NCBI RefSeq assembly: GCF_002208115.1
Contig: NZ_CP020946.1
Span: 1,922,001 to 1,986,000 of the forward strand
DNA length: 64,000 nt
Direction: 5' to 3'
Source of the DNA: Bdellovibrio bacteriovorus
GTDB lineage: Bacteria > Bdellovibrionota > Bdellovibrionia > Bdellovibrionales > Bdellovibrionaceae
Shown: in pieces, positions 37,588-42,167 of the stretch
Layout: each line of letters starts with the position of its first letter
Position numbering within the stretch: position 1 is the first letter of the stretch
The notes under the pieces: generated by a model
The model's database searches: none
The model's input: only the letters and a program-made list of their open reading frames with translations
What the model was told of the DNA's origin: nothing
Translations under genes and position numbers: made by a program

Positions 37588-37761
37588 AAGCTGCCGGAAC
37601 CTATCACAGTTCTTAAGTATTGAGAACCTCTAAGATAATCTGCCCTTTTAGGGTGTCCACTGCGTTAACAGATCAGGAAATTTCTACACCCCGATTCTGC
37701 CTGTTTTCCGGGCCGACCGAGGATTTTTCGGGGCTTAACTGGACTAGACCTCAGTTTTCAC

Positions 37762-37788
37762 TCAGGTTTTTAACAGGAATTCCGATAA
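37762..37788 (+). promoter_or_regulatory. Weak candidate sigma-28-type promoter
   Basis: TCAGGTTT (37762-37769), 11-base spacer, TCCGATAA (37781-37788): 6 of 8 and 7 of 8 to the FliA consensus. The predicted start would fall almost at ATG 37797, implying a nearly leaderless message, which weakens the call. The rest of the 37588-37796 gap shows no gene. Confidence 0.3.
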
Positions 37789-37796
37789 ACACAGGG

Positions 37797-39251
37797 ATGA
37801 GTCATCATTTATGGTTTGAACATTTTAAAGAGCAACTTCAAGGACTTACCGAAGCCTTTGAACAAAGCGCTACGCCTCTGAGCCTCTTGGCTTACGCTAT
37901 CAAGGAGCAACGCCTGAGCTCTGAGGACTATCTTCGTTGGGCGATGACTCACCATAAACTGCCTTTGCTTCAGTCACGATTTTTTACAGAAACTCCCGTG
38001 TCCCAGGAAATGTTCGCGAAGTGGGCGACCCATTATCCGTGGTCTGCGGAGTGTCTGCCTGTGGCGGAGTGGGATGGATCCCTCATCGTAGCATGTCTTC
38101 AGCCGCCGCAGGATTTTCCTTCCATGCCTTCCAGTATTCTGGTTCTGGCGACCTATGAAAATCTGGAAGCCACCTGGAATCTGCTGCACCCGGAAAGACA
38201 ACAAGCCCCTGCGGCGACCCAGGTTTCCGAAGAAGCGCCGGAGGGTATCGATCTTTCCGTTGTTACCACGACCAAACAAGCTTCCGACAGTTTCTCTTTC
38301 GAGGATCTGGGCGTAAAAACCGACTCCAAAGCAGCTCCGGAATTCCAGCCTCTAAGTGAGGATGAGCTTCAATTGGGCGAAACCGGTGACGAAAAACTCG
38401 ATGGTCTGTTTGACGGTCCGACGGTGATTCGTCTTGAGGCTTTGAGTCCATCCACGGAAGTGCCTGCGCAAGCTGCTCCGGCTCTTGAGCCGGTGGCCGT
38501 TTCCTCTGAAACTCCCGAGACTGACCTTAAAACTGTGATTTCTCCTCTGTCACCGCTGACTCCGCTTACGCCGGCACCAGCTGCGACAGTACCAACGGAA
38601 TCAGCGCCCGTCACGGCGGCGACCGCCGTGGAAAGCTCTGCACCAAAACGTGCCACGCCTCCACCGCCTCCGCCTAAAGCTGAAACGCCTCCTCCATTTG
38701 AAGACAGCTTCAGCAACAAGCCTATCGCGATCACCCCGCGTCCGGCAGGCGTGGCGAAGCCGACCATCAATCCGGTGGCCAGCGGTCATTTTGCTTTGGA
38801 AAAAATCAAAAAGAAAAATGCCGCTTTGCTGAATGAGAAAATCAAAACAATCCTGAGCCAGATGAAAGTGCACTTTGAAAAGTCCATGATTCTGACTTTG
38901 GACGAGCAGGAAACACAGATGACCGCTTTTGCCTGGGACGAGAATTTCCAGGGCATGAAAGACACATCCATGCGCTTCCCGCTTCAGACTCCAAGCATCT
39001 TCAACATCGTGGCTACGACGCAAAAACCATATCACGGTTATATCTCTTTGAATGCGATCAACGAGAAGTTCTTTGATGGCTGGAACCAGGGCCGTATCCC
39101 TGATCACGTGACAGTCACCCCGATCATCATCAATGAAAAACTGGTGGGTATGCTGATGGGCTTTGCCGAAAAAGCGGCTTACAACAAGGTTTCTTTGACC
39201 TTGGCTGAAAAGCTTTCCGGCGAGTTCACAAAAGGTCTGCAGGCGGCATAA
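37797..39251 (+). CDS. Pro-rich multidomain protein of unknown function, MshEN-like N-terminus
   Basis: A 484-residue cytoplasmic protein. Residues 1-140 resemble the N-terminal domain of type II/IV pilus assembly ATPases (MshEN-like: a two-part fold with 'SLLAYAIKEQRLSSEDYLRWA'). A long disordered linker (about 180-325) is rich in Pro, Ala, Thr and acidic residues and includes a run of six Pro. The C-terminal 140 residues form a mixed alpha/beta domain of GAF-like appearance. There is no ATPase motif. The ATG has only CAGGG directly before it. The gene ends 2 bases before the PAD-like gene, so the two are co-transcribed. Function unknown. Confidence 0.65.
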   Translation: MSHHLWFEHFKEQLQGLTEAFEQSATPLSLLAYAIKEQRLSSEDYLRWAMTHHKLPLLQSRFFTETPVSQEMFAKWATHYPWSAECLPVAEWDGSLIVACLQPPQDFPSMPSSILVLATYENLEATWNLLHPERQQAPAATQVSEEAPEGIDLSVVTTTKQASDSFSFEDLGVKTDSKAAPEFQPLSEDELQLGETGDEKLDGLFDGPTVIRLEALSPSTEVPAQAAPALEPVAVSSETPETDLKTVISPLSPLTPLTPAPAATVPTESAPVTAATAVESSAPKRATPPPPPPKAETPPPFEDSFSNKPIAITPRPAGVAKPTINPVASGHFALEKIKKKNAALLNEKIKTILSQMKVHFEKSMILTLDEQETQMTAFAWDENFQGMKDTSMRFPLQTPSIFNIVATTQKPYHGYISLNAINEKFFDGWNQGRIPDHVTVTPIIINEKLVGMLMGFAEKAAYNKVSLTLAEKLSGEFTKGLQAA

Positions 39252-39253
39252 TC

Positions 39254-40933
39254 ATGACCATTTTCCTGCAGATCGTCCTGAGTTTTTTTCTGACTGAGGC
39301 TTCTGCAAATTCCTGCTCCCAGCACAATCCCATGGCTGAGGATGTTCCACTTTGTCCTTCCGGCGGCAGCAAACTGCTTTCTGAAAATTACCCGATTATG
39401 GCCGCCACTGTTTCTGATGACATGGGCGGACCCGGTTACGTCAAAGAATACGTCACAAAAGTTTTAAAAGCTCAGTCGCAAAAACCACCGCAGTTCTTCC
39501 TGGCCGTGACTGATGAAACCTGGGATGAAGTCGTCCGGGAAATCAAAAAACAAGCCCCGGATCAGGCGACCGCCCAACAATGGATTTCAGGCTTGAGCCG
39601 TGTGAAAACCAACAGTCGCTGGAACTGGCAACAGGACTATTTTGAAAGCTTCTTTGATGCAAAAACAGGAAAACCCGTCCTGCGCGAAGTGCAGGGTTAT
39701 GGCCGCCATGGAAGCGCTTTCACTGATTTGATGCAACAATCCGGAAAGGATTGCTCTTTCAAACAGGGTCCACAACTGACGAACAACCCTTACAAGTCCG
39801 GACACAGCGGCGGTAACATTGAAGCCGTCAATGGACTGTGCCTGATCGGGTCCGACCACTTCAAAGGCAATGAGTGGGACAAATACGCCAAAGTCACTTG
39901 TGAAAACCCAGCCATGGCCGTAAAAACACCGTCAGATTTTTTAAGCGTGGGCCACACCGATGAGTTTTTCAAAACCCTGAAAGATCCAAACCAAAAAGCC
40001 CCTTGCGATTTCAGCCTGGCCTTTGCAAGTCCGAAAAAAGCACTGGACCTGCTGAAGAAAAACCCCCAGGGCCGGGCCTTTGATTTTTCCCACCTGACGC
40101 CGGATGAGGCTTTGGCCCGAATGAGTCAGACCCCTTACACCTATGTCTGTCGGGAATATTCCTACAGCAAATCCCTGAAAAACAACGGCGGCAATCCGGA
40201 CAAATCCCGCGAAAAACGTTCGCGCGGAGTCAGTCAATTCCTGTTTGAAATCATCCTGCCACCCGTTTCTGCCGGGGCGACGGTTCAGCCATTAAAAGAT
40301 GCTGAATCCAAACGCATACGGGAATATCTGGAAAGAATTTCTGAAGGTGGTATTGACGACCCGGCCCTTGAGCGCAGTCGTCGTGAGGAAAAGTATGCCC
40401 GCTTAAACCGGCGTCGTGCGCTGATGAGGCAATCCGGCATGATCAAGGATTCCACGAGCATCCAAAACGCCATGGACTGTTACAACATGACGAACAAGGA
40501 TCTGGCCGACCTGATCGAAGAGGATTTTGAGCTTAAAGAATTCAATGCTTCGATCGAGGCTGCGACCCAGAAATTCAAAAAAGAACTGCTGGAAAAAGTT
40601 AAGAAGTCCTATCCGCAATGCAATCCAAAGACCGTGGAACTTCCCGATCTTTTCATGGGGGAAATGGACTATGACAGCAATTCTCCGACGTACGTGACGG
40701 GGTCCGCGGACTCGATTTTCCCCAATCCCACCAATGGCGATATCGTTCAAGACACATTTATTTTGCCTGAACCGGTGAACCCGGCTTTTAAAGCTGACAT
40801 TGATTCTTCAATTAAGAATCTGGGTCTTAAAACTGACTACATCGACACACATTTTGCCCACTCCATGAATGGAAATCTGCACTGCTCCAGCCACACCATG
40901 CGCTATTGCCGCCCTCAAGGAGGCACCAAATGA
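39254..40933 (+). CDS. Secreted protein-arginine deiminase (PAD) family enzyme
   Basis: A 559-residue exported protein with a signal peptide (residues 1 to about 18) and a catalytic domain of the eukaryote-type PAD fold, which converts peptidyl-arginine to citrulline. Residues aligning with the PAD4 active site (from memory) are Asp128 in WNWQQDYFE, His234 and Asp236 in LSVGHTDEF, and Cys544 in GNLHCSSHTMR. Gln127, Glu131 and Glu190 (GGNIE) align with calcium ligands of PAD4. The flanking 'SLAFASPKKALDLL' also matches. The N-terminal immunoglobulin-like PAD domains are absent. A charged helical insertion occupies about 345-460. It is overlapped by the next secreted gene (ATGA). Activity and calcium dependence are inferred, not shown. 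Confidence 0.82.
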   Translation: MTIFLQIVLSFFLTEASANSCSQHNPMAEDVPLCPSGGSKLLSENYPIMAATVSDDMGGPGYVKEYVTKVLKAQSQKPPQFFLAVTDETWDEVVREIKKQAPDQATAQQWISGLSRVKTNSRWNWQQDYFESFFDAKTGKPVLREVQGYGRHGSAFTDLMQQSGKDCSFKQGPQLTNNPYKSGHSGGNIEAVNGLCLIGSDHFKGNEWDKYAKVTCENPAMAVKTPSDFLSVGHTDEFFKTLKDPNQKAPCDFSLAFASPKKALDLLKKNPQGRAFDFSHLTPDEALARMSQTPYTYVCREYSYSKSLKNNGGNPDKSREKRSRGVSQFLFEIILPPVSAGATVQPLKDAESKRIREYLERISEGGIDDPALERSRREEKYARLNRRRALMRQSGMIKDSTSIQNAMDCYNMTNKDLADLIEEDFELKEFNASIEAATQKFKKELLEKVKKSYPQCNPKTVELPDLFMGEMDYDSNSPTYVTGSADSIFPNPTNGDIVQDTFILPEPVNPAFKADIDSSIKNLGLKTDYIDTHFAHSMNGNLHCSSHTMRYCRPQGGTK

Positions 40934-41430
40934 TCCGCCACATATTGATTTCTTCATTCGTTTTCGGATTCATTTTTTCAGCCCAAGCTCAAAGCAAAAA
41001 GACACTTTATTCCTGCCAACTGCAGGACGAGTGGCTGCAAGCCAAGAATCTTTCTGCCGGTATTAATATCGAAGACCTCGACCACGCGACGATCACGATC
41101 AAGTCTGAATCTGAAACCGTGGTCTGCCCGATGGCTGTGGAAACAGTTCAGGACGCCTCCCGCAGTCGCATCGCGCGCATTGTTTTCAGCATGACTCCGG
41201 CTGGATGCTCGCCTCAGGAAAAGCTTTTCCACCACAATCTGCGCCGTCGCGTGGAATTATTTGTGGATGCTCATCCCGATGCCAAAGGATCAGCCCAGCT
41301 ATCCTGGCGTCACCGTGGGGCTCGTTCAGAGTGCAAGGAAACCGTGAACAACCTGAAGGCCCACGGAATTGGAAATAAATTCCATCCCACCTCGGCAACT
41401 CCATCCAAGAATGCCTCAGGAACAAGATAA
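40930..41430 (+). CDS. Small secreted Cys-containing protein, unknown function
   Basis: A 166-residue protein with a signal peptide (MIRHILISSFVFGFIFSAQA). The mature part has four Cys (SCQLQ, VVCPMA, AGCSPQ, SECKET), suited to two disulfides. ATG 40930 overlaps the PAD-like stop as ATGA, so its translation depends on that of the PAD-like gene; it could be a partner, inhibitor or chaperone (inference from coupling only). An ATG eight codons earlier lacks signal-peptide logic. No family recognised. Confidence 0.75.
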   Translation: MIRHILISSFVFGFIFSAQAQSKKTLYSCQLQDEWLQAKNLSAGINIEDLDHATITIKSESETVVCPMAVETVQDASRSRIARIVFSMTPAGCSPQEKLFHHNLRRRVELFVDAHPDAKGSAQLSWRHRGARSECKETVNNLKAHGIGNKFHPTSATPSKNASGTR

Positions 41431-41519: not shown

Positions 41520-42167
41520 ATGAAAAACCTTTCCGTTCTTTTCATTGTCCTGCTTCTTCCTTCTTTTCTTTGGGCGCAAGGCGCTCGCATCAAAGTTCTG
41601 AGCGTGCATGATGGCGACACTCTGACGGCGGTGGATGTTTCAAACAACACCCGTGTTAAAGTGCGCTTGATGGGGGTGGACACTCCGGAAGTGGACTTTA
41701 TGAAAGAAACCCAAGGCGATGTGGCATTGGCAGCGCGTGATTTCCTGCGATCCTTGATTCCGGAAGACGGCATTATCACCTTAAGTGAAGACAGCCAGAT
41801 CGACAAACACGGGCGCATCCTGGGTCGCTTGCTAAATGGAAAAACCGATATCAATCTTGAAATGCTGAAAAATGGCTGGGGTATGATTTACTTTATCTAT
41901 CCCTTTGAAAAGCGTGTGGCGAGTGACTACAGCAAGGCATCCAAAGAAGCTTACGACAACCGGCTGGGTGTTTTCTCAAACGACTATCGCGACACCCAAG
42001 AGCCATACCAGTTCCGCATGCGCGTGCAAAAGCAAGTGGGCAGAAATCCGGTCGGCGATCTGGAACTAAAGAAGGTCGTCCCACCAGAAGAGATCACCAA
42101 GATCCCCGTGTGGAAACGAGTCTTCTTCCCGAACTACGAAATGGCCTATCAAAACGGCTACAATTAA
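41520..42167 (+). CDS. Secreted staphylococcal-nuclease-type endonuclease
   Basis: A 215-residue exported nuclease. The signal peptide covers residues 1-19. The SNase domain follows: DGDT at 31-34, Arg49 in VRLMGVDTPE, Asp54, Glu57 and Arg99 in DKHGRI. These correspond to Asp21, Arg35, Asp40, Glu43 and Arg87 of staphylococcal nuclease, so the calcium-dependent site is intact. Secreted DNA/RNA degradation fits nucleotide supply from prey. It is preceded by CCCCTTGCT (41470-41478) 42 bases before the ATG and ends at a terminator (42172). Confidence 0.93.
   Translation: MKNLSVLFIVLLLPSFLWAQGARIKVLSVHDGDTLTAVDVSNNTRVKVRLMGVDTPEVDFMKETQGDVALAARDFLRSLIPEDGIITLSEDSQIDKHGRILGRLLNGKTDINLEMLKNGWGMIYFIYPFEKRVASDYSKASKEAYDNRLGVFSNDYRDTQEPYQFRMRVQKQVGRNPVGDLELKKVVPPEEITKIPVWKRVFFPNYEMAYQNGYN

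Follow-up and report, generated by a model that had tools for sequence, protein, structure and literature searches.

A single-domain PAD-family deiminase of Bdellovibrio bacteriovorus and its conserved partner gene

The locus described here raises two questions: whether its long open reading frame (ORF) encodes a genuine protein-arginine deiminase (PAD), and what role is played by the small gene that overlaps its end. Both lie in a 64,000-nucleotide stretch of Bdellovibrio bacteriovorus DNA (NZ_CP020946.1, positions 1,922,001 to 1,986,000), the whole of which we refer to as the window (Table 1). An initial annotation of this DNA had read the ORF as a secreted, eukaryote-type PAD, but had missed the partner gene, which is the new element here. 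Neither the literature on Bdellovibrio combined with citrulline or deiminase nor a review of its secreted enzymes, scanned by keyword, yielded a description of this PAD.

Table 1. Features of the PAD-partner locus, numbered from the first letter of the window
Feature	Position	Strand	Basis or remark
PAD-family deiminase, 559 aa, single catalytic domain	39254..40933	+	ATG start; Pfam, family profile, predicted fold
Signal-peptide-like N-terminus, MTIFLQIVLSFFLTEASAN	39254..39310	+	inspection; end approximate
Gln126-Asp128: Gln127 = PAD4 Gln349 (Ca1 ligand), Asp128 = PAD4 Asp350 (catalytic)	39629..39637	+	alignment
Glu131 = PAD4 Glu353, Ca1 ligand	39644..39646	+	alignment
GNIE, Gly187-Glu190; Glu190 = PAD4 Glu411, Ca1 ligand	39812..39823	+	hhalign
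His234, Asp236 = PAD4 His471, Asp473	39953..39961	+	phmmer, profile, hhalign
Helical insert absent from PAD4, about residues 285-412, partly low-confidence	40106..40489	+	hhalign, model
Cys544, predicted nucleophile = PAD4 Cys645	40883..40885	+	phmmer, profile, hhalign
AAGGAGG ribosome-binding site of the partner gene	40917..40923	+	perfect match
Partner gene, 166-aa small putatively exported all-beta protein	40930..41430	+	ATG overlaps PAD stop by 4 nt

An ORF of the PAD family

The ORF matches the Pfam PAD family (PF03068) with 46.5 bits, where the cut-off is 25 (E 3.4e-12), and, used as a single sequence in phmmer, it finds human PAD4 at 1e-4. When a family profile was built from 25 relatives (alignment A1), its only matches among PDB sequences at E<=0.01 were PADs, with PAD4 the best at 3.2e-27, and hhalign paired the same 25-member family with PAD4 at 99.5% probability; the PAD4 stretch used in that alignment is identical to the PDB chains except for the first ~30 residues. 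The AlphaFold2 model (mean pLDDT 85, pTM 0.84) has the pentein catalytic fold of PAD, and superposes onto PAD4 296-660 with a Z of 33.7 and 2.7 Å over 327 residues. An hmmscan carried to E<=1 returned PAD and a chance IPPT match only, and the arginine deiminase, agmatine deiminase and Porphyromonas PPAD families of Pfam and NCBIfam gave no match at that threshold. Thus, by sequence and predicted fold, the ORF is a genuine PAD relative, lying where the initial annotation had placed it and carrying the motifs that it had named, WNWQQD (Asp128), LSVGHTDEF (His234 and Asp236) and GNLHCSSHTMR (Cys544). The label "eukaryote-type" nevertheless misleads: a bacterial origin is assumed for PADs, and PAD_C homologues were already known from 69 proteobacterial species (Cummings et al. 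2021; PMC8826395).

Profile alignment and hhalign equate Asp128, His234, Asp236 and Cys544 with PAD4 Asp350, His471, Asp473 and Cys645, the roles of which have been described (PMC13023937). This Asp/His/Asp/Cys quartet is complete in 40 of 41 relatives. Judging by its sequence, a PAD relative of genome G121 (L056, 847-2358, minus strand), which has M, N and S at the positions of the catalytic His, second Asp and Cys, is likely inactive. The alignment of Gln127, Glu131 and Glu190 with calcium ligands of PAD4, also proposed in the initial annotation, stands for calcium site 1, whose ligands these are and which is retained, but sites 2 to 5 are not kept. The Ca2 ligand PAD4 Glu351 is replaced by Tyr129, an acidic residue being present there in none of the 25 relatives, and sites 3-5 are lost together with the middle PAD domain. 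Outside the animal/cyanobacterial PAD clade, Glu351 is not a defining residue (PMC8826395).

On inspection, the N-terminus of the enzyme resembles a signal peptide, as do those of most PAD relatives, which agrees with the export that had been proposed; residues 1-20 have low confidence in the model. The catalytic domain extends from about residue 39 (of 559), some 20 residues past the signal-peptide-like segment, so that neither PAD_N nor PAD_M is present and the immunoglobulin-like domains are indeed missing. Nearly all of the 11 cysteines are well conserved among the closer relatives, in keeping with export and disulphide bonds. An extra insertion that is absent from PAD4 also exists, albeit with limits at about 285-412 rather than the 345-460 assigned to a charged insertion by the initial annotation. 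The suggestion that such proteins define a separate PAD group is borne out: its members are single-domain and cysteine-rich and, for the most part, linked to a partner gene.

The three-domain PADs of animals and cyanobacteria (PADI1-4 and cyanoPADI) share with the window enzyme the PAD_C fold, the Asp/His/Asp/Cys site and the Ca1 ligands. Unlike them, and at about 20% identity, the window PAD has no PAD_N, PAD_M or calcium sites 2-5, whereas it is putatively exported and cysteine-rich, with a large helical insert and a partner gene. The two-domain PADs of fungi, actinobacteria and other proteobacteria likewise have a PAD_C that falls outside the animal/cyanobacterial clade (PMC8826395); in contrast to these, the window PAD leaves no room for PAD_M, and a partner gene is undescribed for the two-domain forms. 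Porphyromonas PPAD is an exported bacterial citrullinating pentein enzyme (PMC8826395 and general knowledge), as is predicted for the window PAD, and belongs, as the initial annotation held, to a different branch.

The partner gene and its linkage to PAD

The start codon of the partner gene sits within the PAD stop codon (ATGA), and the N-terminus of the encoded protein is signal-peptide-like. Its model is all-beta and confident in the core, with fold matches at background level (Foldseek, best E 0.048; VIA, Z no higher than 7.8); at that level, a staphostatin- or lipocalin-like inhibitor fold is conceivable. Searches of Pfam, NCBIfam and PHROGs gave isolated chance matches only, and none of the PDB sequences was matched. 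The only residues invariant in the family are four cysteines, Cys29, Cys66, Cys93 and Cys135. We also considered the partner as a PAD_M domain supplied in trans; this idea gained no support, as the fold matches of the partner included no PAD domain.

Linkage of the two genes was assessed in a comparison set of 41 distinct PAD relatives. A partner lies immediately downstream of 26 of these PADs, at -4 to +32 bases, and overlaps the PAD gene by 4 or 1 base in 17 of the 26 cases; the other 15 PADs have no downstream partner. Among the named relatives, nearly every long-type PAD is followed by an ORF of partner-like size. In a leave-out homology test, in which sequences more than 35% identical and signal peptides were removed, 22 of 25 partners were recovered at E<=1e-5, two more scored 0.006 and 0.03, and one was missed. 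On this sequence evidence, the partner ORFs form one homologous family. The partner-linked PADs occupy one part of the maximum-likelihood tree, where the distribution of the partner requires three changes, a number as low as which was reached in 0 of 500 shuffles; the three changes are readable as one gain of the partner and two losses. In two lineages (L147 and L148) the order is swapped, the partner preceding PAD while remaining adjacent to it. A whole-genome search for the partner found 30 strong copies, 28 of them beside a PAD, a count that is partly circular because the partner profile was built from PAD neighbours; we place the weight of the linkage evidence on the leave-out test and the swapped-order lineages, not on this count.

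Several individual loci depart from the common arrangement. In two genomes, a partner is present but no PAD was detected (L145, 1086-1589, and L146, 5057-5488), and the L146 copy starts at the extreme end of a large gene resembling an RNA-binding (S1-type) protein. A single genome carries tandem PAD-partner pairs (L062, 5304-7501 and 7731-10102). The only PADs within the partner clade that have no partner, L010 (genome G067) and L018 (genome G089), show degraded Ca1 ligands, K/Q/G and Q/V/D, respectively, versus Q/E/E. Close orthologues of the window PAD and of its partner are both present in another genome.

Distribution and genomic site

PAD relatives are encoded by 82 of 369 Bdellovibrionota genomes, representing 56 of 182 genera, and occur in Bdellovibrionaceae, Bacteriovoracaceae and Bacteriovorax, among others. 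Thus, the rarity in bacteria that the initial annotation ascribed to such enzymes does not hold within this group. A genome-wide pattern scan with a narrow alignment gave 21 loci, nearly all of them labelled Bdellovibrionota (the exceptions are one MAG labelled only as Proteobacteria and one entry labelled only as "bacterium"); such a scan favours close relatives, and the 21 loci do not imply absence from other groups. Plasmid searches with two PADs produced no match. Within the genus Bdellovibrio, a PAD is present in 7 of 24 genomes. One Bdellovibrio PAD (genome G005; L030, 874-2304, minus strand) is shorter and distant in sequence, occupies another chromosomal site, has no partner and has lost the Ca1 ligands.

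The gene upstream of PAD is core, being found in 24 of 24 Bdellovibrio genomes. In congeners without PAD, what comes after this core gene varies: either further genes, one of them isochorismatase-like (by inspection), or, with nothing in between, the SNase-family nuclease gene or tsaE; the PAD site is a variable slot. The copy of the core gene in the window (37620-39251) ends 2 bases 5' of the PAD start and encodes a product that has a linker rich in Pro and Ala and whose only match, to GAF, falls below threshold. On the other side of the gene pair, 41520-42167 encodes an SNase-family nuclease (Pfam SNase, 1.5e-16) with a signal-peptide-like start. A recent foreign origin of the PAD locus finds no support in its base composition, which agrees with that of its neighbours. 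Promoter and terminator scans at the locus gave results near chance.

Proposed function and its alternatives

We propose, with roughly even confidence, that the two genes form a module comprising an exported single-domain PAD and a binding partner, most likely one that is inhibitory before release. The first gene would yield an exported, disulphide-rich enzyme that deiminates arginine of proteins or peptides via its animal-type Asp/His/Asp/Cys site, with a single calcium ion at site 1 probably assisting. The second, translationally coupled and served by a strong ribosome-binding site, would yield a small exported protein, beta-barrel-like in shape, which binds PAD and most likely inhibits it inside the predator's own periplasm. 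Citrullination would then await release of the enzyme, into prey for instance. The initial annotation envisaged citrullination of prey proteins or of the predator's own envelope, a possible role in favour of which speaks the wide occurrence of PAD genes in a largely predatory phylum; that 17 of the 24 Bdellovibrio species genomes lack any PAD speaks against a need for it in predation.

Assignment of the partner as an inhibitor or self-protection protein, its most likely role by analogy, rests on gene arrangement and on precedent, because no fold match rises above background. Inhibition is favoured because an exported enzyme could modify the periplasm of the cell that makes it, because the partner is coupled and apparently also exported, and because B. 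bacteriovorus offers a precedent in Bd3459/Bd3460, where an exported enzyme is followed by its periplasmic protector (PMC4686830). The two loci would be alike in placing an exported predation enzyme before a small exported protein in one operon, although Bd3459/Bd3460 are a DD-endopeptidase and an ankyrin protector, whereas the window pairs a PAD with an all-beta, four-cysteine candidate protector. Staphostatin-like inhibitors, too, are co-transcribed with exported cysteine proteases, from a position either up- or downstream (PMC3462683), and in both the staphostatin/staphopain and the Bacteroides C10 protease/inhibitor pairs a small, mainly beta protein adjoins an exported enzyme with a cysteine nucleophile, as is predicted here. 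Staphostatins are cytoplasmic, however, whereas the window partner appears to be exported, and no sequence relation between them is known.

Nearly as likely as inhibition is that the partner activates the enzyme or helps it to fold; taken with a targeting subunit, such a helper of the same exported PAD is possible, if less probable than the module as proposed. Tight coupling suits any obligate complex, and staphostatins, too, have been suggested to act in folding (PMC3462683). It further fits a helper that PADs outside the partner clade, as well as two within it, do without the partner, and that those two, L010 and L018, are also degraded at Ca1, as if both events were linked. Yet the partnerless PADs outside the clade still conserve the catalytic site, and the strong ribosome-binding site and the position after the enzyme suit a protector as well. 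A quite different role, that of a dedicated PAD substrate, a small exported protein citrullinated to alter its charge, would accord with co-production with PAD and with the basic character of the partner in every sampled member. We consider it very unlikely, since no arginine is conserved among the partners, some of which hold just 2 to 4, and invariance is confined to the four cysteines.

The enzyme itself could have another purpose: instead of modifying proteins, it would deiminate agmatine or arginine, the latter free or at a peptide terminus, and so serve nitrogen or pH control. Such enzymes also belong to the pentein fold (PMC8826395), bacteria of this group commonly export digestive enzymes, and the substrate-backbone residues (PAD4 Arg374 region) are unmapped in the window PAD. 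A nutritional deiminase nonetheless seems improbable, given that the 25-member profile matches PADs alone in the PDB at E<=0.01 and that arginine deiminase, agmatine deiminase and PPAD are missing from the Pfam and NCBIfam matches at E<=1. Returning to an inhibitory partner, we can only tentatively go further and suggest that it is a dedicated natural PAD inhibitor that evolved once in Bdellovibrionota and serves in self-protection, which would make citrullination a predation tool with its own antidote.

The window enzyme extends the known PAD family, to which the conserved, uncharacterised partner adds a new element. Together they suggest that proteins are citrullinated beyond the animals, in a phylum noted for its bacterial predators, and the minimal, one-domain, putatively exported form of the enzyme shows what PADs can dispense with. 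The partner offers an immediate case for studying how another protein may restrain a PAD. A natural protein inhibitor of PAD, if that is what the partner proves to be, would be of practical use, given the standing of PADs as drug targets in inflammatory disease.
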